From NCBI GenBank assembly GCA_030432635.1, contig JAUIMB010000004.1, forward strand, positions 1 to 64,000: DNA of 64,000 bases, written 5' to 3'. Both the position numbers and the translations under genes were made by a program. The notes beneath the pieces are model-generated. The model made no database searches. It was not told where the DNA came from and was given only the letters and a program-made list of their open reading frames with translations. Positions 49,530-63,598 of the stretch are shown here, piece after piece (within the stretch, counting starts at the first letter, position 1; each line of letters starts with the position of its first letter). This DNA comes from Bacteroidia bacterium. GTDB taxonomy: Bacteria; Bacteroidota; Bacteroidia; Flavobacteriales; Flavobacteriaceae.

Positions 49530-50657
49530 ATGAAATTCCAAAAACGTAACAAAGCCCTAATTTTACTCGCAGATGGAACCATATTCCATGGAAAGTCCAT
49601 CGGAAAGCAAGGTACAGCCTTTGGTGAAGTGTGTTTCAATACTGGTACCACAGGCTATCAGGAAATTTTTACAGATCCATCGTATTTCGGACAGCTTATG
49701 GTGACCACAAATGCACACATTGGAAACTATGGAACAAAAAATGAAGAAAATGAGTCTGATTCTGTGAAAATTGCTGGATTGATTTGTAGAAATTTTAGCT
49801 TTGAGTATTCTCGACCAGCAGCAGATCAATCTTTGGAAGCCTTTTGTGAAGCACACAACTTATTGGTCATCTCAGATGTAGATACCAGAGCCTTGGTCAG
49901 TCATATCCGTGATCATGGTGCTATGAATGCCGTCATCACTACCGAAGTTGATTCGATTGAAGCCTTGAAACAACAATTGTCTGAAGTCCCAAGTATGAAA
50001 GGGTTGGAGCTGGCATCAAAAGTATCGACTAAAGCACCTTATTTCTTTGGAGATGAGAATGCGACTTATAAAATTGCCGCTTTGGATTTAGGTATTAAAA
50101 AGAACATTTTACGCAATTTGGCTGCGAGAGATGCATACATCAAAGTCTTTCCTTACAATTCTAAATTCGAGGACATGGCAGCTTTTAATCCAGATGGTTA
50201 CTTCTTGTCCAATGGTCCTGGTGATCCTGAGCCTCTCATGGAAGCCCAGGCAATCGCTAATGAAATTATAAAAAGGGATTTGCCGTTATTCGGTATTTGT
50301 CTAGGGCATCAAGTGATTGCATTGAGCCATGGTATTTCTACTTACAAAATGCACAACGGTCACAGAGGCATAAACCATCCAGTGAAGAACTTACTTACAA
50401 GTAAAGGTGAGATCACTTCGCAAAATCATGGATTTGCCATTAATAGGGAAGATACCGAAAATCATCCTGACGTTGAAATCACCCATGTGCATCTTAACGA
50501 TGATACGGTTGCTGGAATTCGACTAAAAGGGAAAAACTGTTTCTCGGTGCAATATCATCCCGAAGCAAGTCCTGGACCTAATGATTCAATTTATTTATTC
50601 GATCAATTTATTGAGAATATAAAAACAGCTACTAATAAAAAAGCAATGAATGTTTAG
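49530..50657 (+). CDS. carA: Carbamoyl-phosphate synthase small subunit
   Basis: At 375 residues this is full length. The N-terminal domain (ALILLADGTIFHGKSIGKQG, EICFNTGTTGYQEI-like EVCFNTGTTGYQEIFTDPSY) precedes a class I glutamine amidotransferase domain: nucleophile Cys in LFGICLGHQV and the His-Glu pair in VQYHPEASPGP. It delivers ammonia from glutamine to CarB for arginine and pyrimidine synthesis. carB is not adjacent in this window. The last codons are part of a terminator stem. Confidence 0.98.
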   Translation: MKFQKRNKALILLADGTIFHGKSIGKQGTAFGEVCFNTGTTGYQEIFTDPSYFGQLMVTTNAHIGNYGTKNEENESDSVKIAGLICRNFSFEYSRPAADQSLEAFCEAHNLLVISDVDTRALVSHIRDHGAMNAVITTEVDSIEALKQQLSEVPSMKGLELASKVSTKAPYFFGDENATYKIAALDLGIKKNILRNLAARDAYIKVFPYNSKFEDMAAFNPDGYFLSNGPGDPEPLMEAQAIANEIIKRDLPLFGICLGHQVIALSHGISTYKMHNGHRGINHPVKNLLTSKGEITSQNHGFAINREDTENHPDVEITHVHLNDDTVAGIRLKGKNCFSVQYHPEASPGPNDSIYLFDQFIENIKTATNKKAMNV

Positions 50658-50815: not shown

Positions 50816-52132
<1,317 letters not shown>

Positions 52133-52165
52133 TTTTACATCACCTATCACAATAAGTTTGAAATT

Positions 52166-52206
52166 AACCCTTTTTGAGTGGTGTGCTCCTGAAGGGTTTC
52201 TTTTTT
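52166..52206 (+). terminator. Terminator after eno
   Basis: AACCCTT (52166-52172) and AAGGGTT (52192-52198) form a 7-bp stem, followed by TTCTTTTTT. It lies 33 bp after the eno stop. Confidence 0.8.
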
Positions 52207-52305
52207 CTAAAACTAATCGAATTCTAAGTGAAACCGTAAAAATTCTAATTCATCCTTAGTTTTCAAATCCTAAATCTTTACTTTTAGTTTAACGATAAGT
52301 TATAA

Positions 52306-54288
52306 ATGAAAGTAAAGTTCCTTTTTCCTATATTATTTTTATTGTTGTTTGTATCGATTCATGGCCAGACCAAAGTCATGGATAGTTTGCAGCAAACACT
52401 TCGGCAAGCAAATACCGATGTCGATAAAGTGAAACTGCTCAATGCGATATCCAATCAATACAAGTATTCTGATCCCAATAAAATGGCAGAATATGGTAAC
52501 AAGGCTCTTGAATTTGCAAAACGCGTTAATAATTCAATTGAAGAGGCCAATGCCTACATCAATATCGGAACTTCAGATATTATTCTTGGTAATTATGCCG
52601 AAGCCCTTGATACTTTTTCTTTAGCAAAAAACATTTTGGAAGCTCAGCAACAGGAAAAAGCGGAAAGTATTGACATAACTCAAGGACTTGCCCAAGTGTA
52701 TGCCACTATGGGTATTGTCTTTTCAGAACAAAGTAATTATGCTAAAGCCTTGGAGTTTTATCTGAAATCGGTCAAATTATATGAAGGTCTAAATAATGAT
52801 GTGAAATGTTCGCGATTATATAATAACATTGGCGTGGTTTATAAATCACAATCACAGTATCAGAAAGCCTTAGAGTATTTTGAAAAATCTAAGACATATC
52901 AAGAACAATTAAAAGATCCGAATCTTGGAATAACACTTACCAATATGGCTAATATTTATAGGATTCAGCAGCAGTATGATCGCGCTAATGAGAATTATAA
53001 TTTGGCAAAACAAAGTTTGGACAACAATCCAAACCCTAGAGCATTAGGAGAATGGTACAATAGCATTGGGTTGTATTATAAAGCTGTCGGTAACTCAGAA
53101 AAAACTATTGAAAGCTGGGAAAAGGCCATCGCGACTTTTGAGAGTTTCGATGATAAATTTGGATTGTCTGATACCTATTTGTTTTTAGGACAATTCTATT
53201 ATGATCAAAATAACCTAAAACAAGCGCTATCCATGACTAATAAAGCGCTTCAATTATCTGAAGATATCGATGTCTTAGAAGCTAAAATGTCTTCAGAAAA
53301 ACTACTAAGTGATATCTATGCCAAACTAGGACAAACATTATTAGCCTTAGAACATTTTCAAAAGCATAGTCAAGCAAAAGATAGTTTAATTAATGCGGCT
53401 GCTATAAGGAAGTCTGTTGAAACAGCTATGAACTATGAGTTTGAGAAAAAGGAGTTGATTCAAAAAGAAGAAAATGAAAAACGTGAACTACTATTAAAGG
53501 AAGAAGCAAAAAGTTCAAAAATGAAATTACTTTTTGGAGTTCTAATCGCGGTGTTATTATTTGGAATCGGTTTTTTAATCTATAACAGATCTCAACTTAA
53601 AAAACGACTGACACTCCAGAAGGAATTAGCCGAATATGAACAAAAAGCACTGCATCTTCAAATGAATCCACATTTCGTGTTTAACTGTTTGGGGTCAATT
53701 TCAAGTTTTATAGTTCAAAACGGAACAGATTCAGCAATAAAATATCTGTCTAAGTTTTCAAAACTCATGCGATTGACCTTAGAATATTCAAAAGAATCTC
53801 TAATTCCTATTGATAGAGAAATTGAGAGCTTGCAAAACTATTTGGAATTAGAACAATTGAGGTTTAATCACATGTTCGATTTCAAGATACATAAGAGTCA
53901 GAATATTGAAGATGACGTATCGTTGCCACCTTTGCTCATTCAGCCATTTGTTGAAAATGCGATAATTCATGGTGTGATTCCTAAAAAGCAAGTAGGTAAT
54001 GTCATAGTTGATTTCACGCTTGGTCAGGATGTTTTGATTTGTACGATTACCGATGACGGCATTGGCATAAACACTTCAAAAAAGAATAAAGAACATTCTG
54101 TTGTAGCACACAAATCAATGGCATTGGACATTATAAAAAAACGGTTAGAAATGATATCATCTTCGACATCAAGAGATGCCACCATTAGTGTTGAAGAATT
54201 GAAGAGTAACCAAAAGGTTAGTGGTACAAAAGTAGTCCTAAAACTGCCATTACAATATTTAGAAACACGCACTGCCGTTAGTATATAA
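52306..54288 (+). CDS. TPR-containing LytS-type sensor histidine kinase
   Basis: At 660 residues it has a signal-like N-terminus (FLFPILFLLLFVSIHGQ), a large sensor part of TPR repeats (~25-370; e.g. ALEFYLKSVKLYEGLNNDVK and ALEYFEKSKTYQEQLKD), a charged coiled coil (~375-405), one transmembrane helix (~406-425) and a short second coil. The kinase core is of the LytS/His_kinase type: phospho-acceptor His456 in LQMNPHFVFN and ATP-binding Asn551 in QPFVENAIIHG. The sensor is probably periplasmic. The response regulator gene follows 19 bp later. Confidence 0.93.
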   Translation: MKVKFLFPILFLLLFVSIHGQTKVMDSLQQTLRQANTDVDKVKLLNAISNQYKYSDPNKMAEYGNKALEFAKRVNNSIEEANAYINIGTSDIILGNYAEALDTFSLAKNILEAQQQEKAESIDITQGLAQVYATMGIVFSEQSNYAKALEFYLKSVKLYEGLNNDVKCSRLYNNIGVVYKSQSQYQKALEYFEKSKTYQEQLKDPNLGITLTNMANIYRIQQQYDRANENYNLAKQSLDNNPNPRALGEWYNSIGLYYKAVGNSEKTIESWEKAIATFESFDDKFGLSDTYLFLGQFYYDQNNLKQALSMTNKALQLSEDIDVLEAKMSSEKLLSDIYAKLGQTLLALEHFQKHSQAKDSLINAAAIRKSVETAMNYEFEKKELIQKEENEKRELLLKEEAKSSKMKLLFGVLIAVLLFGIGFLIYNRSQLKKRLTLQKELAEYEQKALHLQMNPHFVFNCLGSISSFIVQNGTDSAIKYLSKFSKLMRLTLEYSKESLIPIDREIESLQNYLELEQLRFNHMFDFKIHKSQNIEDDVSLPPLLIQPFVENAIIHGVIPKKQVGNVIVDFTLGQDVLICTITDDGIGINTSKKNKEHSVVAHKSMALDIIKKRLEMISSSTSRDATISVEELKSNQKVSGTKVVLKLPLQYLETRTAVSI

Positions 54289-54307
54289 TTTAAATACTTA
54301 CACTATT

Positions 54308-55069
54308 ATGATTACAGCTATTTTAATTGACGATGATAAAAATCTAAGAGAAGGTATGAAAAAGCTGTTGGAACTGTTTGCACCATCAATACAAATTATT
54401 GGTGAAGCTGATAGTGTTTCAACAGGCATCGAAACCATGATTTCCTTACATCCCGAAGTCGTGTTTTTAGATATTCAATTAAATGACGGCACTGGTTTTG
54501 ATATCTTGGAAAAAGTAGCTGAAAGGAACGGAGCAATCACATCTAACATTGTATTCATTACGGCCTATGAGCAATATGCTATCAAGGCATTTAGATTTAG
54601 TGCTTTAGACTTTTTATTGAAACCCGTTGATCCAGAAGAATTGCAAAAAGTCATCAAGAAAATCGAGTCTGTATTAGAAAAAACGAATGATTATGCGCAT
54701 ATTGATTTACTCCTGGAAAACATTAGAAAGAAGGTTGACAATTTCAAGCGCATCGCATTGTCAACATCTGATGGTATTCATTTGTTTAATATTAGTGATA
54801 TTATAAGATGTGAAAGTGAAGATAATTACACGAAGTTCTTTATCAAGAATGACAAAACGGTAATGATTTCCAAAACCTTGAAGGAATATGAGGAACTATT
54901 GACCGAACATGGTTTTGAGCGCATTCATCAATCACATTTAATCAACTTAAAATATCTAAAATCTTATATAAAACGAGATGGAGGCTATGTCATCATGGAA
55001 GACGGAAGTAATTTGCCAATTTCACAACGTAAAAAAGAACGACTTCAGGAAATCTTAAAGACCATTTAA
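54308..55069 (+). CDS. LytTR-family response regulator
   Basis: At 253 residues, an N-terminal receiver domain has acidic D8-D10, phospho-acceptor Asp55 in VVFLDIQLND, and Lys105 in LLKPVD. The C-terminal LytTR DNA-binding domain (~148-250) has IRCESEDNYTKFFI and GFERIHQSHLINLKYLK. It is the cognate partner of the kinase immediately upstream. The LRR genes next to it are plausible targets, but no repeat operator was identified. Confidence 0.95.
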   Translation: MITAILIDDDKNLREGMKKLLELFAPSIQIIGEADSVSTGIETMISLHPEVVFLDIQLNDGTGFDILEKVAERNGAITSNIVFITAYEQYAIKAFRFSALDFLLKPVDPEELQKVIKKIESVLEKTNDYAHIDLLLENIRKKVDNFKRIALSTSDGIHLFNISDIIRCESEDNYTKFFIKNDKTVMISKTLKEYEELLTEHGFERIHQSHLINLKYLKSYIKRDGGYVIMEDGSNLPISQRKKERLQEILKTI

Positions 55070-55166
55070 GCCGACAGAAGTCGAATTCTAAGTCAAACCC
55101 TTTAGATTCTCATTGACTACCATAAAAACAAAACAACATCATTAAATTTAGGTAAAATCCATATCC

Positions 55167-57656
55167 ATGAAAAAAATTACGCTTATCATATGCCTTATTA
55201 CGATCTCTCTAAACGCACAAGTTGTGGATATTCCTGATACTAATTTTAAAGCAAAGCTATTACAAGCCTCTGTAGACAACGAAATTGCAAAGGATTTAAA
55301 TGGAGACTATTTTAAAATAGATGTAAATAATGATGGGGAAATACAAGAAAGCGAAGCTTTATCAACATCGTATTTGGATCTTTATAATTCAGATATAGTC
55401 GACATGACAGGAGTTGAAGCATTTACTAATTTATTACATCTAGATTGCTATATAAATGATATTGAAATTTTAAATGTAACTACATTGGTAAATCTGGAGT
55501 ATTTAAGAAGCTCTTTCAATCCTTTAAATGATGGTTTGGATGTTTCTCAAAACACTGAATTAACATTTTTATCGTGTTTTGGTAATTCATTGTCTTCTCT
55601 TGATATAAGTCAAAACATTAATCTTGAACATTTGGAATGTACTAACAATCAAATCACATCTTTAGATGTGTCACAAAACCCAAACCTTACCTTTCTTGCT
55701 TCAGGAAATAATCCTCTTGGTAGTATTGATGTGACGCAAAATCTAAATTTAGTTAGTTTATATTGCCATCAAAATCAACTTACAGAATTGGATATAACCC
55801 AAAATGGGAATTTAGAACTGTTGTGGGCTTATGAAAATCAGTTGTCAAGTATAGATGTTACATCAAATAGTGACCTTTTAAATTTGAGATGTTATGGCAA
55901 TCAAATCACAACTTTAGATGTGTCGCAAAACCCAAACCTTGAAAGTATACAATGTTATGATAATCAATTATCGGGTTTAGATATTACAAATAACATAAAT
56001 TTAGAGGAGCTTAGGTGTGCAAATAACCAAATAACAGATTTAGATATTTCCCAAAATACACTACTAAATTATCTCAGATGCGAAAATAATTTGCTCACTA
56101 CACTAGATGCAACTAACAATGGGAATATTCAATTTTTATTTTGCAATAATAATCAACTTACAAGTTTATTAATAAAAAACGGAAATATTGAAGAAGGGGT
56201 AGGCCTTCATAGTAATCCCGATTTACAGTATGTTTGTGTTGATGAAGGAGAAATAAATCAAATACAAGCATCAGTACCTAATGTTTTAGTCAATACTTAC
56301 TGCAGTTTTACTCCAGAAGGAGATTTTAATACAATAACAGGTAATCTAACTTTTGATGGCAATAACGATGGTTGTGACACTCAAGACGCCTTACAATCCA
56401 ATATTAGAGTAGATATTAATGATGGTACAAATCAAGGTGCAGTATTTACGAATGCTTCTGGTAACTATACTTTTTTTACTGAAGCTGGAAATTTTTCAAT
56501 TACCCCAAATTGGGAAAGCACTAATCTTTTCAATTTTTCGCCATCAACAGTTGTAATTCCTTTTTCAGATGATAGTAATAATATTGTTACTCAAGATTTT
56601 TGTATCACAGCAAATGGTATCCACAATGATGTTGAAGTACTCGTAGTTCCAATTGAAACGGCTCAGCCAGGTTTTGATGCAGTTTACCAAATAGTCTATA
56701 AAAATAAAGGAAATCAGATGTTGTCAGGAACTGTAAATCTAATGTACAATGATGCAGTTTTAGATTATGTTTCGGCATCTATTCCACCTGATAATCAATT
56801 AGAGGATAACTTGTTATGGAATTATTCTAATTTATTGCCATTTGAAAGCAGAGTGATTGATGTCACATTGAATGTGAACTCACCGATGGAAACACCTGCT
56901 GTTAATAATGGTGATATTTTAGATTTTAATGTGTCCGTATCTCCCGTTTCTGGAGATGAAACACCTTTAGATAATAATTTTGATTATGAGCAAACGGTTG
57001 TAGGTTCTTATGACCCAAATGATATTACATGTTTAGAAGGTGATCTTGTCAACCCAGAACACATAGGAGAGTACCTTCACTATAATATCAATTTTGAAAA
57101 TACCGGAACAGCTGCAGCAACATTTATTGTGGTAAAAGATAATATTGATAATTCTCAATTCGATATTAATTCCTTGCAAGTGTTATACACCTCGCATGAA
57201 GTGATGACCAGAATCATCGACAACACGATCGAGTTCATATTTGATGACATCAATTTGGCTTCAGAAGGAAAGGGTAATATCGTTTTCAAAATAAAAACAA
57301 ACGACGATTTGGTCATTGGCGATTATGTAGAAAACAAGGCGGAAATTTTCTTTGATTATAATTTTCCAATTGAGACCAATGTGGCAACAACAGTATTTGA
57401 CGTGTTGTCTATTGCAGAGTATGATGAACCGAGAATTAATATTTTTCCTAACCCTTCTTCAGATATTGTATACGTGAGATGTAAATCAATCATAGAGTCG
57501 ATTGCTGTATATGATGTTCATGGACGATTGATAAAAAGTCAACAAGCAAATAAAGCTGAAGAGATCGTACAGGTTTCAGAATGTAATAGCGGTATTTACT
57601 TTTTAAAAGTAAAAACGGAGAATGGTGAAGGGCTAAAGAAAATAGTTAAAAATTAG
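55167..57656 (+). CDS. T9SS-exported leucine-rich-repeat protein 1
   Basis: At 829 residues it has a signal peptide (MKKITLIICLITISLNAQ) and an EF-hand/dockerin-like segment (D52-N54-D56-E58-E61). Ten tandem 21-residue leucine-rich repeats span ~120-335, with a consensus of LDVSQN, then xNL, then xxLxCxxNQLTS. A linker and a carboxypeptidase-like/SdrB-type segment (ITGNLTFDGNNDGCDTQ) follow, then a ~250-residue domain common in T9SS proteins (GSYDPNDITCLEGD, YLHYNINFENTGTAAA, IFFDYNFPIETN; DUF7619-like). A T9SS type A sorting domain is C-terminal (NIFPNPSSDIVYV). Probably surface-attached and protein- or glycan-binding. Confidence 0.9.
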   Translation: MKKITLIICLITISLNAQVVDIPDTNFKAKLLQASVDNEIAKDLNGDYFKIDVNNDGEIQESEALSTSYLDLYNSDIVDMTGVEAFTNLLHLDCYINDIEILNVTTLVNLEYLRSSFNPLNDGLDVSQNTELTFLSCFGNSLSSLDISQNINLEHLECTNNQITSLDVSQNPNLTFLASGNNPLGSIDVTQNLNLVSLYCHQNQLTELDITQNGNLELLWAYENQLSSIDVTSNSDLLNLRCYGNQITTLDVSQNPNLESIQCYDNQLSGLDITNNINLEELRCANNQITDLDISQNTLLNYLRCENNLLTTLDATNNGNIQFLFCNNNQLTSLLIKNGNIEEGVGLHSNPDLQYVCVDEGEINQIQASVPNVLVNTYCSFTPEGDFNTITGNLTFDGNNDGCDTQDALQSNIRVDINDGTNQGAVFTNASGNYTFFTEAGNFSITPNWESTNLFNFSPSTVVIPFSDDSNNIVTQDFCITANGIHNDVEVLVVPIETAQPGFDAVYQIVYKNKGNQMLSGTVNLMYNDAVLDYVSASIPPDNQLEDNLLWNYSNLLPFESRVIDVTLNVNSPMETPAVNNGDILDFNVSVSPVSGDETPLDNNFDYEQTVVGSYDPNDITCLEGDLVNPEHIGEYLHYNINFENTGTAAATFIVVKDNIDNSQFDINSLQVLYTSHEVMTRIIDNTIEFIFDDINLASEGKGNIVFKIKTNDDLVIGDYVENKAEIFFDYNFPIETNVATTVFDVLSIAEYDEPRINIFPNPSSDIVYVRCKSIIESIAVYDVHGRLIKSQQANKAEEIVQVSECNSGIYFLKVKTENGEGLKKIVKN

Positions 57657-57688
57657 AACTATAATGTTGAATAGCTAATTCGTTAAAC

Positions 57689-59956
57689 ATGAAAAAGATC
57701 ACATTTTTAGTATTGTGCATGACTTGGTTTTCCAATGCCCAAATAGTCAATATTCCTGATGCCAATTTCAAAGCGGCTTTGGTAGCAGCTGGCGTTGATA
57801 CTAATATGGATGGTGAAATTCAAGAAAGTGAAGCGCTAGCCGAAGTGAATATAGACGTTGCGAGTTCCAACATTTCAGATCTGACGGGTATTGAGGCTTT
57901 TATTAATATATTGACTTTAGACTGTTCAGAAAATCAGCTAACCTCGCTAGATGTTAGCCTAAATGTTAATTTAGAATCTTTACGTTGTCCAAATAATCAA
58001 ATCTCGAATTTAGATGTATCTCAAAATGTTAATTTAGATTTTATCGCATGTCAAAATAATCAGCTCACGAATTTAGATACATCTCAAAATACCAATCTCG
58101 AATCTTTACTTTGTGAAAACAATCAATTAGCCAATTTAAACATAGAAGGTAACACTGTTTTAGAAACCTTATGGTGCTTCGAAAATCAATTGACAGTATT
58201 AGATATTACTCAGTCCCCAAATCTAATAAACTTAATATGTAATAATAATGAGCTGTCAATAATTGATACAGGTCAAAATCAGAATCTTGAGCTGTTAGTT
58301 TGTTATTCTAACCAACTGACAAGCTTAGATATTTCTGAAAATGTGCTACTTCAATCCTTGAGGTGTTTTGATAACCAAATAACAAATATAGACGCTTCAA
58401 ACAATTTAAATCTTATCACATTGTTGTGCCAAGGAAATGAACTTTCCGAATTAAACATTAAAAATGGTAGTATTGAAACTACTCTTGATTTTAGCGATAA
58501 TCCTGCGTTATTATTTGTATGTGCAGATGAAGCACAAGTTGTTTCCGTTCAAGGAGAAGCAAGTCTCGGTACAGTAGTAAGCTCATACTGTTCTTTTGTT
58601 CCTGGCGGTAGTTATAATACCATTAGTGGTTCTATCATATATGATTTTCTTGAAGATGGATGTGACCCTATTGATGTGCCTCAACCTCATATAAAAATTA
58701 ATATAGCCGATGGTTCCCCTGAAGGGGAAGGTTCGACTTTCACAAATGGTAATGGGATTTACACCTTCTATACCAATACTGGGAACTTTGACATTGCACC
58801 TGATGTAGAAGATCCTTCATGGTTTGATCTTAGTCCCAATTCTGCCTCGATACCATTCCTTGATAACAATAATAACATAGTGGTTCAAGATTTCTGTATT
58901 ACACCTGTGGGTGTTCATAATGATGTTGAAATCTATGTCGCACCAATCGAATTTGCGCGACCAGGATTTGACGCTATTTATCAAATCGTCTATAGAAATA
59001 AAGGAAATCAAGTGGCTTCGGGAAATTTTGAATTCACATTTGAAGATGACGTTCTTGATTTTGTGGGTGCAACATCAACTCCTGATGCACAAACTACTGG
59101 TAATCTATCTTGGAGTTACGAGAATCTGCTGCCTTTTGAAAACAGAGATGTTTATGTAACCATGAATGTTAATAGCCCAGAAGAAGATCCTCCTGTAAAT
59201 ATTGATGATATTCTAGATTTTAGCGTAGCAATTGATACAGAAACTGAGGATGAAATCCTTAACAATAACCTATTTTTTTATAAGCAAACAGTCGTTGGGT
59301 CTTACGATCCTAATGATATAACCTGTCTTCAAGGTGATATTGTTCCAACCGATTTGATTGGAGAAGATTTGAGTTATATAATAAATTTTGAAAATATTGG
59401 TACGTCTGCTGCCGAAAATGTAGTGATTGAAATTGAAGTTGATGACGCTCAATTTGATATCAATACCCTTAGAGTTTTAAATGCATCTCATATGGTCGAT
59501 ACAAGAGTTGAAAATGATAAGATGAAATTTATTTTTGAAAACATCAATCTTGCAGCAAGTGGTGGTCATGGGAATATTTTAATTCGAATACAAAGTAACA
59601 ATAACTTACAATCTGGTGAATTTGTAACCAAAAGAGCCAACATTCATTTTGATTATAATTTTCCTATTGAAACTAACGACGCCAACACTGTATTTGAAAA
59701 CTTATCTGTAATTGATCAAGAAAAAGATACTTCAGTTAAAATATTTCCAAACCCAGCGAACGATACATTAAACATTTCAGCAAATGGAACGATTAAAATC
59801 GTTGAAATTTATGATGTTCAAGGTAGAATGACACAAGCATCAGTGGTGAATAGTTCTGCTGTAAAAATAAATGTCAACTCGTTTTCGAATGGTGTGTATT
59901 TTTTAAGAATAAAAACTGAAAATGGCACCAGTGTTCAGAAAATCATTAAAGATTAA
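57689..59956 (+). CDS. T9SS-exported leucine-rich-repeat protein 2
   Basis: At 755 residues this is a paralogue of the preceding gene with the same order: signal peptide (MKKITFLVLCMTWFSNAQ), EF-hand-like segment (D37-N39-D41-E43-E46), eight clear 21-residue leucine-rich repeats plus a partial one, SdrB-like ISGSIIYDFLEDGCDPID, DUF7619-like region (GSYDPNDITCLQGD, DLSYIINFENIGTSAA, IHFDYNFPIETN) and T9SS sorting tail (KIFPNPANDTLNI, terminal KIIKD). It is two repeats shorter. It starts 32 bp after gene 1 and probably shares its transcript. Confidence 0.9.
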   Translation: MKKITFLVLCMTWFSNAQIVNIPDANFKAALVAAGVDTNMDGEIQESEALAEVNIDVASSNISDLTGIEAFINILTLDCSENQLTSLDVSLNVNLESLRCPNNQISNLDVSQNVNLDFIACQNNQLTNLDTSQNTNLESLLCENNQLANLNIEGNTVLETLWCFENQLTVLDITQSPNLINLICNNNELSIIDTGQNQNLELLVCYSNQLTSLDISENVLLQSLRCFDNQITNIDASNNLNLITLLCQGNELSELNIKNGSIETTLDFSDNPALLFVCADEAQVVSVQGEASLGTVVSSYCSFVPGGSYNTISGSIIYDFLEDGCDPIDVPQPHIKINIADGSPEGEGSTFTNGNGIYTFYTNTGNFDIAPDVEDPSWFDLSPNSASIPFLDNNNNIVVQDFCITPVGVHNDVEIYVAPIEFARPGFDAIYQIVYRNKGNQVASGNFEFTFEDDVLDFVGATSTPDAQTTGNLSWSYENLLPFENRDVYVTMNVNSPEEDPPVNIDDILDFSVAIDTETEDEILNNNLFFYKQTVVGSYDPNDITCLQGDIVPTDLIGEDLSYIINFENIGTSAAENVVIEIEVDDAQFDINTLRVLNASHMVDTRVENDKMKFIFENINLAASGGHGNILIRIQSNNNLQSGEFVTKRANIHFDYNFPIETNDANTVFENLSVIDQEKDTSVKIFPNPANDTLNISANGTIKIVEIYDVQGRMTQASVVNSSAVKINVNSFSNGVYFLRIKTENGTSVQKIIKD

Positions 59957-59993
59957 TTATAATAGTTTCCATTATTATTTTTTTAACTAATGA

Positions 59994-60746
59994 CTAAAAC
60001 GTATACAACAAGCCATTGGTCAATTCATATTGGGTTTTAGGGATATCTGGACTTACTGGAACCGCATCATGAAAAAAGTTGAAATTCGTTTTAAATGCCA
60101 AGTTCTTATAGATTTCAATAAGAATAGAGGTATTGCTCGAAAAGCGGTAATCCTTAAAGGATTCGATTAAAGGTTGATAATAACTCGTACTGATAATCGT
60201 GAGCGTTTCTATTGGAAACAAACTAAAGGATAAGTAGGCACTACCACGAATGTCTCTTTGTATGCGATCAAGTACGACATCCGAAGCGCGTTCATATTCA
60301 TACATGACAAGCGTACCAAGATAAAATCGATAATCATCATGCTTGCTTAGCTTAAATCGTGGTCCTGTACCCAATAAACCTCTAAAATCAATTTGTGACA
60401 CGGCATCATATTGTGCTTGGGCAAAAGCTTCCCATTTCACACGATCCGAAATTTTGCGATTGTATCTTAAGTGCTGTGTTCCGCGATTAACCAAAGCGTT
60501 GCCTTCGACTTTCTGAAAGCTCAAATCATTCACAAACAACCATAAATTGGTTTTATCATTATACTGCACATGTGCCTTATTGGCAATTCTGAAAATAGTG
60601 TTGGTGTTCTTTATCAATGACACATCCAAACTAATAGAACCCGTCCATTTTGCCGAATCGGAAGCCTTGCGTAAAGTTTCCACATTGACCACCTGTGCAT
60701 TTCCAATACAGATTACAAAAAAAGTGAAGAAAGTTAGATATCGCAT
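59994..60746 (-). CDS. DUF481-like outer-membrane beta-barrel protein
   Basis: At 250 residues it has a signal peptide (MRYLTFFTFFVICIGNAQ) and a beta-rich body: WTGSISLDVSLIKNTNT, RGTQHLRYNRKISDRVKWEA, FAQAQYDAVSQID, LGTGPRFKL. This resembles DUF481 (YdiY-like) barrels. The function is unknown. It ends with an aromatic LLYTF, typical of barrel C-termini. It is convergent with LRR protein 2. Confidence 0.72.
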   Translation of the reverse strand: MRYLTFFTFFVICIGNAQVVNVETLRKASDSAKWTGSISLDVSLIKNTNTIFRIANKAHVQYNDKTNLWLFVNDLSFQKVEGNALVNRGTQHLRYNRKISDRVKWEAFAQAQYDAVSQIDFRGLLGTGPRFKLSKHDDYRFYLGTLVMYEYERASDVVLDRIQRDIRGSAYLSFSLFPIETLTIISTSYYQPLIESFKDYRFSSNTSILIEIYKNLAFKTNFNFFHDAVPVSPDIPKTQYELTNGLLYTF

Positions 60747-60940: not shown

Positions 60941-62227
60941 ATGTCAGACAAAGCTACGCTAGAAATAAATGGGAAAACGTACGAATTACCATTAGTTGAA
61001 GGTACCGAAAATGAAGTTGCTATAAACATCAAATCTCTTAGAGGTGATACAGGAGGCGTGATAACAATAGATCCTGGATACAAGAATACGGGAAGTTGTG
61101 AAAGTGCAATTACTTTCTTGGATGGAGAGAAAGGTATCTTGAGGTATCGTGGTTACTCTATTGAGGAACTGGCAGAAAAGGCAGATTTTCTTGAAGTAGC
61201 TTATTTGCTCATATTTGGAGAGTTGCCAACGCAAACCGAACTGGATAAGTTCCATGCAGATATCAAGCATCATTCGGTTGTTGATGATGATGTGAAGAAG
61301 ATTATTGAAGCCTTTCCTAAATCGGCGCATCCAATGGGTGTGCTCTCATCTTTAACAAGTGCTTTGACCGCCTTTAATCCAACTTCAGTTGATGTGAATT
61401 CTGAAGAGCAAATGTACAATGCCATTGTACGAATCTTAGGAAAATTTCCAGTGTTAGTGGCTTGGACAATGCGTAAGAAACATGGTTTACCGTTAGAATA
61501 CGGTGATGATAATTTAGGTTATGTCGAGAATGTATTAAAAATGATGTTCAAAAGTCCGAACAAGGATTATGAGCAAAATAAAATCCTAGTGGACGCATTG
61601 GATAAGCTATTGATATTGCATGCAGATCATGAGCAAAACTGTTCAACATCCACTGTTAGGATTACAGGATCCTCTCATGCTGGACTGTTTGTGTCACTTG
61701 CAGCTGGAATTTCAGCACTTTGGGGACCACTTCACGGAGGAGCGAACCAGGCAGTTTTGGAAATGTTGGAAGCCATCAAGGAAGATGGAGGCGATACAAA
61801 GAAATATATGGCAAAAGCTAAAGACAAGAACGATCCATTCCGATTAATGGGATTTGGTCATCGCGTTTATAAGAATTTTGATCCAAGGGCAAAAATCATT
61901 AAAGTCTCTGCAGATGAAGTCTTAGGGGATTTAGGTGTGGAAGATCCAATTTTGGATATTGCCAAAGGCTTGGAAAAAGAAGCTTTGGAAGATCCATATT
62001 TCGTCGATAGAAAATTATATCCTAATGTCGATTTCTATTCAGGTATTATTTACCGAGCCATGGGTATTCCTGTAGAAATGTTTACAGTGATGTTCGCACT
62101 AGGTCGACTACCAGGTTGGATAGCACAATGGAGAGAAATGCGCTTGCGTAAAGAACCAATAGGACGACCAAGACAGCTATATGTAGGTGAGACCTATAGA
62201 CCGTTTAAAAAAATTAACGATAGATAA
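60941..62227 (+). CDS. gltA: Citrate synthase
   Basis: At 428 residues this is the type II (Gram-negative hexameric) form: a long N-terminal segment with LRGDTGGVITIDPGYKNTGS, EQMYNAIVRILGKFPVLVAW, the His in LILHADHEQNCSTSTVR, catalytic region LWGPLHGGANQAVLEML and FGHRVYKNFDPRAKI, and C-terminal FTVMFALGRLPGWIAQWREM. It condenses oxaloacetate and acetyl-CoA. The 194-bp gap upstream shows no gene. A strong terminator follows. Confidence 0.98.
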   Translation: MSDKATLEINGKTYELPLVEGTENEVAINIKSLRGDTGGVITIDPGYKNTGSCESAITFLDGEKGILRYRGYSIEELAEKADFLEVAYLLIFGELPTQTELDKFHADIKHHSVVDDDVKKIIEAFPKSAHPMGVLSSLTSALTAFNPTSVDVNSEEQMYNAIVRILGKFPVLVAWTMRKKHGLPLEYGDDNLGYVENVLKMMFKSPNKDYEQNKILVDALDKLLILHADHEQNCSTSTVRITGSSHAGLFVSLAAGISALWGPLHGGANQAVLEMLEAIKEDGGDTKKYMAKAKDKNDPFRLMGFGHRVYKNFDPRAKIIKVSADEVLGDLGVEDPILDIAKGLEKEALEDPYFVDRKLYPNVDFYSGIIYRAMGIPVEMFTVMFALGRLPGWIAQWREMRLRKEPIGRPRQLYVGETYRPFKKINDR

Positions 62228-62368: not shown

Positions 62369-63598
62369 ATGAAAACAATTAAATCTTTTTTGACCATTTC
62401 CTTTGTGGTAATAGTCTTCGTAAACCAAATGGGTGGTCAAACCAGTACATCAACAGGAACAAATGCAGGTAATACAGGAGCTCATAATAGTGCTTTTGGA
62501 GCTAATGCATTAATGAGCACTACAGGTGGTTACAATTCTGCCTTTGGATCTGGGGCTTTACAAAATAATATTGGAGGTCAAAATAATACTGCTTTAGGGC
62601 GAGAAAGTCTTTCGGACAATACTACAGGTTTAAATAATGTTGGGGTTGGTATGTATGCTTTAAGACGTAATACTACCGCTTCAAATAATATTGCTATAGG
62701 ATATAATACACTTGCAAATATGACTACTGATGGAAAAAATACAGCCATTGGTCATTCGACAGCTACATCACTAACATCTGGAACGCTAAATATTCTTATA
62801 GGATATAAATTGGCGGTACCATCCAATTTGGAGTCGACTATTATTTTAGGTAATAATTCCAAGTGGAAAATTACGTCTGATGCCGATGGTTATACGGGAA
62901 TTGGATTAGGATATAATCAATTTGCGCAAAACCGACTTGAAATTGGAAGTGGTATTCCTGGAACTTCTGGATTACGATTTAGAAGTATTAACTCTAATAG
63001 TTCAACAGTGGCCTCAAATGGTAAGGTCTTAACGGTAAATGCAAATGGAGATGTAGTGCTTACAACAGATGCTGGAGGATCAGGAGGCGGATCTAATGTG
63101 AACATCTATAACGCAGATGGCACACTCACGGGAAATAGAACTGTAACGATGAATAACAATAGGCTCATGTTTAATACGGATACTAATGGTTCAATTTATG
63201 TAGGAGATCGAAGTGATATTACCAACAATGCTAATTTCCCAACAACTACAGGTAATTATAGATTATATGTTGAAGGAGGTATCCTAACCGAAAAAGTAAA
63301 AGTAGCGCTAAGAAATCCAAATACGAATTGGGCTGATTATGTGTTTGAAGACGATTATAAACTAATGTCTTTAAAAGATATTGAGAATTTTATTAAGAAG
63401 CATAAGCATTTACCTGGTATTGCTTCAGCTAATGACTTGGTTGAAAACGGATTAGATTTAGCCGACATGCAAGCTAAACAAATGGAAAAGATCGAGGAAT
63501 TAACACTTTATATTATAGAACAACACAAAAACGTTGAGAAGCAACAAAAGGAGATTGAAAAGTTAAAAGCAATGGTTAAAGCGCTAACTAAGCAATAG
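62369..63598 (+). CDS. Secreted YadA-head-like repeat protein with coiled-coil end
   Basis: At 409 residues it has a signal peptide (IKSFLTISFVVIVFVNQMGGQ) and about six degenerate ~21-26-residue repeats between ~30 and 150 of the kind found in YadA-like head domains (NSAFGANAL, NTALGRESL, NNIAIGYNTL, NTAIGHST). A central beta region follows. The C-terminal ~90 residues (YVFEDDYKLMSLKDIENFIK, HLPGIASANDLVENGLDL, EEL then a heptad coil) resemble the end domain of Bacteroidota tail-fibre/S74-related proteins. Probably trimeric and surface-exposed. Confidence 0.78.
   Translation: MKTIKSFLTISFVVIVFVNQMGGQTSTSTGTNAGNTGAHNSAFGANALMSTTGGYNSAFGSGALQNNIGGQNNTALGRESLSDNTTGLNNVGVGMYALRRNTTASNNIAIGYNTLANMTTDGKNTAIGHSTATSLTSGTLNILIGYKLAVPSNLESTIILGNNSKWKITSDADGYTGIGLGYNQFAQNRLEIGSGIPGTSGLRFRSINSNSSTVASNGKVLTVNANGDVVLTTDAGGSGGGSNVNIYNADGTLTGNRTVTMNNNRLMFNTDTNGSIYVGDRSDITNNANFPTTTGNYRLYVEGGILTEKVKVALRNPNTNWADYVFEDDYKLMSLKDIENFIKKHKHLPGIASANDLVENGLDLADMQAKQMEKIEELTLYIIEQHKNVEKQQKEIEKLKAMVKALTKQ

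Follow-up and report, generated by a model that had tools for sequence, protein, structure and literature searches.

A predicted autoactivating LytTR two-component switch dedicated to T9SS-tailed leucine-rich repeat proteins in the eno-gltA interval of a flavobacterium

We analysed the first 64,000 nucleotides of contig JAUIMB010000004.1 (forward strand) of the flavobacterial assembly GCA_030432635.1 (Bacteroidia bacterium, Flavobacteriaceae), hereafter the window, where the interval between eno and gltA holds genes for a sensor histidine kinase (HK), a LytTR-type response regulator (RR), and two tandem leucine-rich repeat (LRR) proteins with a C-terminal tail of the type IX secretion system (T9SS). 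The same paired repeat precedes the switch genes and the surface-protein genes, both here and in many relatives, so that the cluster appears self-wired. HK-RR-LRR is very probably an autoactivating two-component switch of the LytTR type, dedicated to T9SS-tailed LRR proteins and organised as a self-contained accessory unit. The original prediction for this DNA, a local sensing unit controlling surface proteins, agrees with the linkage of HK, RR and LRR genes, with the presence of sites at both promoters, and with the two exact sites found in the genome, and the regulatory link from HK-RR to the LRR genes is well supported, as far as sequence can carry it.

Gene calls and domain searches likewise bear out the predicted order of a tetratricopeptide repeat (TPR)-LytS kinase, a LytTR regulator and two tandem LRR-T9SS genes between eno (50840-52132) and gltA (60941-62227). 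HK (52306-54288, + strand, 660 amino acids) contains TPRs and a PF06580 His_kinase domain (Pfam, 77.6 bits); its sequence reads as a signal peptide, a TPR region, one transmembrane segment (at about residues 405-427) and a LytS-type His_kinase domain, with the TPR domain predicted to face the periplasm. RR (54308-55069, + strand, 253 amino acids) combines a receiver domain (PF00072, 71.2 bits) and a LytTR domain (PF04397, 67.9 bits), and carries at F203-S209 the FxRxHxS motif of LytTR regulators (PMC4227749; this and the other papers given by PMC number are cited from excerpts). LRR1 (55167-57656, + strand, 829 amino acids) and LRR2 (57689-59956, + strand, 755 amino acids) share one architecture, with a signal peptide (by sequence reading), LRRs (PF12799), DUF7619 (PF24595) and a T9SS tail (PF18962), the last also matched as the T9SS type A sorting domain TIGR04183 of NCBIfam (51.6 and 56.5 bits, respectively, for a cut-off of 23). 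By this tail both would be T9SS cargo, presumably displayed at the cell surface. The LRR part of LRR1 resembles internalin-J (PDB 3bz5, E = 4.9e-52), and a gap of 32 bp separates LRR1 from LRR2, which are probably cotranscribed.

Paired direct repeats had been proposed as something to look for upstream of position 55167, and such a pair is present there (55085-55114), with a second one before the kinase (52221-52250). Both lie on the + strand with a period of 21: the HK-promoter repeat (52218-52250) has half-sites at 52221-52229 and 52242-52250, and the LRR-promoter repeat (55082-55114) has half-sites at 55085-55093 and 55106-55114. The two are built on a common 33-bp element, made up of CGA, ATTCTAAGT, a 12-bp spacer and ATTCTMATT in this order, and are predicted to be RR binding sites. 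Candidate -7 elements of the form TAnnTTTA follow on the same strand, TACTTTTA at the HK promoter (52279-52286) and TAAATTTA at the LRR promoter (55143-55150), in each case 29 nt past the end of the repeat; we take them to be of the TAnnTTTG type of Bacteroidota. When the genome was searched with a shorter pattern covering both half-sites, the HK and LRR1 promoters were the two exact matches, with eight further places at one mismatch; allowing up to two mismatches gave 62 matches in all, as against 39 in a reversed control. Under a longer pattern, one of the HK and LRR1 sites is exact and the other has 1 mismatch, and the six places that follow have 3, where the reversed control also gave 6. 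A wider regulon in this genome was accordingly set aside as a candidate: beyond the two sites, the longer pattern does no better than the reversed control.

The linkage of the unit extends well outside the window. Among 97 unique loci with RR identities of 55-100%, retained after dropping 13 whose RR was identical to another, an LRR homologue starts at most 2.3 kb downstream of RR in 95; of the two others, one has it 5.6 kb downstream (locus L075) and one has none before the contig ends (L134). By comparison, none of 39 distant loci (RR at or below 51%) has an LRR gene downstream of RR, a few of these contigs ending soon after RR. A kinase homologue adjoins RR in most orthologous loci. The genome of the window itself has 22 LytTR matches and 11 strong DUF7619 matches in the domain search, and this is its only LytTR gene adjoining a DUF7619 protein (by eye, the next pair, on contig C37, is 5.6 kb apart).

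The distribution of RR orthologues fits the accessory status originally proposed. Since the best 9-10 candidates per genome were scored, prevalence is a lower bound: at least 8 of 299 genomes of the family (68-100% identity, next matches at or below 45%) and at least 58 of 249 genomes of the Flavobacterium-type genus carry one. It is found in 4 of 23 genomes of the window's own genus, and the unit occupies 3 of 21 eno-gltA intervals there. Among the best 80 of 553 RR relatives, 40 loci lie at 68-87%, one at 55%, and 39 at or below 51%.

The period of the repeat is conserved across these relatives. In a motif-free test, which asks for any 9-mer repeated (at least 8 of 9 positions) at a given period within 150 bp before HK, period 21 was found in 37 of 45 orthologous HK promoters, and other periods between 12 and 35 in 0-4; in distant LytTR loci, period 21 occurs in 3 of 26. 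This is the fairer test, since the motif behind the other counts was itself built from these loci. By those counts, the main form (at most 4 mismatches of 21, with a wider stretch taken where the HK start could not be set) precedes HK in 67 of 93 loci and a variant with ATAATA half-sites in 15, for about 0.1 in all in shuffled sequences. When the loci are sorted by the length of the RR-LRR gap, a site is found there in 43 of 47 if it measures 75-160 bp, in 2 of 3 for 60-75 bp, in 1 of 4 for more than 160 bp, and in none of 19 for 30-60 bp, where there is little room; 19 gaps below 30 bp were too short to be included. With a short gap, transcription from the HK promoter presumably runs on into the LRR gene, so that this gene, with its own site where the gap is long, would come under the same control in both arrangements.

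Two further groups of regulators may be mentioned in connection with the repeat. In four loci that form a small RR subclade (L135, L137, L138, L230; three of them with G170), no main site is recognised upstream of HK, and L230 carries a diverged repeat pair at the expected place. Just after RR, seven distant RR relatives (L164, L167, L170, L172, L176, L177, L181; 44-48% identity, mostly Bacteroidales) carry a geometrically similar repeat, mostly AAACTGATT or TAACTGATT, 12 nt, and the half-site again; the genes behind it differ from LRR, being mostly one of about 150 amino acids followed by one of about 1235. This similar geometry suggests a general rule for this LytTR branch.

Regulator and half-site also covary. 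RRs with ATAATA sites have A170, S241 and K or R at 171 in 15 of 15 cases, and RRs with main sites have S170 in 66 of 67, R241 in 66 of 67, and E or Q at 171 in 54 of 67. At the base of the clade that was relocated, L141 and L152 retain both the main site and S170/R241; residues and site thus appear to have changed together, after relocation. Twelve of the Flavobacterium-type genomes have two or three copies, and both copies were compared in eight: the second copy is nearer the variant half-site type in six, three of them within thresholds, and the remaining two have an intermediate site (L247) or no recognised site (L146). Counting from the FxRxHxS motif, we infer that RR position 241 lies near R233 of AgrA (PMC4227749), a placing that depends on this count. 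AgrA, whose chain would give the exact contact residues, was not among the RR profile matches. In genome G300, the eno-gltA interval holds an LRR remnant (L085), and a second HK-RR-LRR unit, 70% identical, lies elsewhere (L205), with repeats both upstream of HK and downstream of RR.

In the mechanism that we propose, an inner-membrane TPR sensor kinase would perceive a periplasmic cue and phosphorylate the LytTR regulator, which would bind as a dimer to two 9-bp repeats with a period of 21 bp, a short distance ahead of the -7 element. Acting at its own promoter (52218-52250), RR would exert positive autoregulation; acting at 55082-55114, it would turn on the LRR genes, whose products would be exported to the surface by the T9SS.

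The closest known systems share parts of this scheme. LytS/LytTR systems of the AgrA, YpdB and BtsR type have the same receiver-LytTR regulator with its FxRxHxS motif, the same PF06580 kinase, and the same 9-bp direct repeats with a 12-bp spacer just upstream of promoters; they differ in the predicted periplasmic TPR sensor and in the predicted two-promoter regulon ending in T9SS-tailed proteins. BtsR is the best NCBIfam match of RR, but at a score of 125 against a cut-off of 246. Compared by eye on both strands, the half-site ATTCTMANT does not fit what we take to be the broad LytTR consensus. LytTR repeat sequences are described as variable, with length, spacing and place conserved, and in Streptococcus mutans a site of HdrR with a 12-bp spacer just upstream of the promoter was shown experimentally to mediate autoactivation (PMC6193735); the window repeats have the 12-bp spacer and promoter-proximal position of this tested site and of other LytTR sites. 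The LytTR Regulatory Systems HdrRM and BrsRM share the autoregulation through direct repeats with a 12-bp spacer at their own promoters, but pair the LytTR protein with an inhibitory membrane protein, whereas the window RR has a receiver domain and a kinase partner (PMC6193735). On the sensory side, in FimS/FimR of Porphyromonas gingivalis, too, a surface adhesin is controlled by a sensor kinase whose TPRs lie in the periplasm (PMC11053733). FimS (NF053520) is the best NCBIfam match of HK, its best stretch covering residues 4-204, but with 73.6 bits against a cut-off of 600, HK is not FimS. FimR, for its part, is presumably not a LytTR regulator.

Regarding the output, Flavobacterium psychrophilum likewise has tandem LRR proteins with T9SS tails (PMC9723704, PMC8400371, PMC5682007). 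In that species, some LRR proteins are depleted in, or missing from, the secretome of gldD and gldG mutants (PMC5682007), the tandem LRR genes are induced by fish plasma (PMC9723704), and their number varies between isolates (PMC8400371). Given the T9SS tails together with this export, plasma induction and copy variation, adhesion is a reasonable but unproven role for the LRR proteins.

Several observations weigh against the proposed switch. Eleven of 93 HK promoters have no recognised site, 4 of the 47 LRR promoters whose gap measures 75-160 bp also lack one, as do 3 of the 4 beyond that length, and the loci are related, so that all these counts are not independent. L247, the exception among main-site regulators, combines A170 and S241 with a site of intermediate type; L146, L251, L253 and L255 carry the variant residues, but no variant site reaches the threshold, the last three showing weaker ATAATA-type pairs below it. 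Further class-specific positions fall in the receiver domain or linker (ten) as well as in the LytTR domain (three), and the covariation is in essence that of one clade and one evolutionary event.

A last point of this kind concerns a different circuit, in which the loop would be closed and the kinase would sense the LRR protein's state after export, or its secretion. TPR domains bind peptides, TPR substitutions in FimS alter fimbriation (PMC11053733), and the near-constant gene linkage is consistent with such a loop; yet sensor and LRR part show no codivergence beyond background, and we consider it rather unlikely. In pairwise identities over 65 loci with complete genes, the LRR part changes fastest of those measured (mean identity 0.35), followed by the sensor (0.46) and RR (0.75), and sensor-LRR coevolution was rejected, with no coupling beyond the RR and kinase background (partial correlations 0.01-0.14). 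Between the window and its two congeneric copies, the sensor is 62 and 73% identical, the kinase domain 83-84%, and the LytTR domain 88-95%.

Somewhat less probable still is that RR is a repressor, its repeats silencing HK-RR and LRR until a signal arrives. The sites do give the place of action and not its sign, but both window repeats lie upstream of the -7 element without overlapping it, the 29 nt leave room for polymerase, and LytTR activators bind at such upstream positions (PMC6193735); by position, therefore, the repeats should be activator sites. That they belong to another regulator and stand here by neighbourhood, HK-RR controlling something else, would accommodate the HK promoters that have no site and the eight one-mismatch places in the genome, but is very improbable, as the site and RR residues 170, 171 and 241 change together in one clade, as the longer pattern finds nothing else in the genome within two mismatches, and as no site with up to two mismatches precedes the LRR-only gene of L083 or the remnant of L085, both of which have no HK-RR there (the sole two-mismatch match near the L085 remnant falls inside a DUF481 gene).

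How the HK-RR-LRR unit came to lie between eno and gltA was addressed by comparing 21 loci of the genus, that is, the window and 20 others; of the 23 genomes, G314 had no eno match and G309 a partial one, and both were left out. The close neighbourhood of carA (49530-50657), eno and gltA stated in the original prediction is confirmed, with carA adjoining eno in all 21 loci and gltA lying downstream of eno within the fetched stretch in 20 (L092 has no gltA nearby). In three loci (the window, L082 and L076), HK-RR-LRR follows eno and precedes the DUF481 gene, fourteen intervals consist only of eno-DUF481-gltA, and the remaining ones hold an LRR gene alone (L083), a C-terminal LRR remnant (L085) or a different insert (L088). 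The DUF481 barrel-like gene beside gltA (59994-60746, - strand; PF04338), which had been counted as part of the island, should be taken out of it: present in 19 of 21 genus loci with or without the island, and absent from all 13 loci compared beyond the genus, it belongs to the genus background and not to the accessory unit.

The position after eno is not peculiar to this genus. HK starts at most 600 bp after eno in 28 of the 97 loci, namely the window, its two congeners and 25 others, of Flavobacterium type. Among the 95 loci of the RR tree, from which two incomplete RRs were dropped, the fetched stretch contains both eno and gltA in 34, gltA only in 12, eno only in 4 and neither in 45, the stretch or contig ending in some of these last. 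In the tree, the window and the two congener copies group together (support 99), within a weaker set (85) that includes copies from Flavobacterium gelidilacus, Dokdonia and Aequorivita. The genes on either side track the genus, unlike RR, whose tree and identities conflict with those of eno, gltA and carA: the window and F. gelidilacus share 87% identity in RR and 71% in gltA, whereas F. gelidilacus and F. odoriferum share 83% in RR and 90% in gltA. Within the genus, the nearest relative of the window is L076 by housekeeping genes but L082 by RR. L082, with the unit, L083, with the LRR gene, and L087, which is empty, are close relatives, and the LRR genes of L083 and L085 resemble most island LRR proteins more closely than they do the remaining DUF7619 proteins encoded in the genome of the window.

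The insertion assumed in the original prediction survives in part. A foreign island that entered the eno-gltA interval once, and recently, in the window lineage would agree with the fourteen congener intervals that have no unit and with an interval GC content a few points below the flanks. Against it stand the 25 other loci with the unit just after eno, the LRR-only and truncated remnants in congeners, the fact that the three carriers of the genus do not form one clade, and the result of gene calls and domain search, which found no integrase or transposase among the open reading frames of the interval; we hold such an event to be improbable. An old presence with repeated loss and exchange at a fixed position fits better, in view of those 25 loci and of the remnants.

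More tentatively, eno-gltA may be a standing flavobacterial exchange site for cassettes of a sensor, a LytTR regulator and T9SS surface proteins, with recombination between conserved flanks swapping units or removing them, and with duplicates elsewhere insulated by the joint change of regulator and half-site. This is possible, though we would not call it probable. It draws on the use of the same position in two genera, the conflict of gene trees with the flanks, the remnants, the other T9SS inserts (in L088 and in another genus) and the half-sites of second copies in six of eight genomes; insulation of the duplicates is suggested because residues 170, 171 and 241 changed together with the half-site (ATTCT versus ATAATA).

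Other contents of eno-gltA intervals were noted by sequence reading. In L088 (3659-9655), an 854-amino-acid sensor-like protein with a LytTR-like C-terminus lies between eno and gltA, together with two small lipoprotein-like genes and a 438-amino-acid protein that ends like a T9SS tail, and the DUF481 gene is missing. In L105 (3583-8847, reverse complement), from another genus, the interval holds a 1754-amino-acid protein, which we take to be a T9SS metalloprotease, and in L097, L099 and L100 it holds a gene that we assume to encode a glycogen synthase. In the window, a stem-loop followed by a T run 3' of eno (52166-52208, + strand; fold of 52155-52212, -14.9 kcal/mol, z -2.49) is a probable terminator separating eno from the HK-RR-LRR unit; it is absent from the output of a consensus terminator scan. 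Promoter scans by sigma-70 rules and terminator scans did no better than shuffles and were set aside. The gene after gltA (62369-63598) reads as YadA-head-like repeats, with no Pfam or NCBIfam match at 1e-3.

Among the matches listed in open-licence literature, judged by titles and beginnings of abstracts, we found no description of the HK-RR-LRR unit, nor any announcing a flavobacterial LytTR regulator with its DNA site and target. One paper treats LytTR and LRR genes of F. psychrophilum, and the excerpt cited draws no connection between them (PMC10057207). LytTR regulators are numerous in the source flavobacterium, and for one of them the unit suggests a DNA site and a dedicated target, with a half-site and candidate specificity residues. 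It also points to a place to look for the regulator of the plasma-induced, variable LRR arrays of F. psychrophilum (PMC9723704, PMC8400371).

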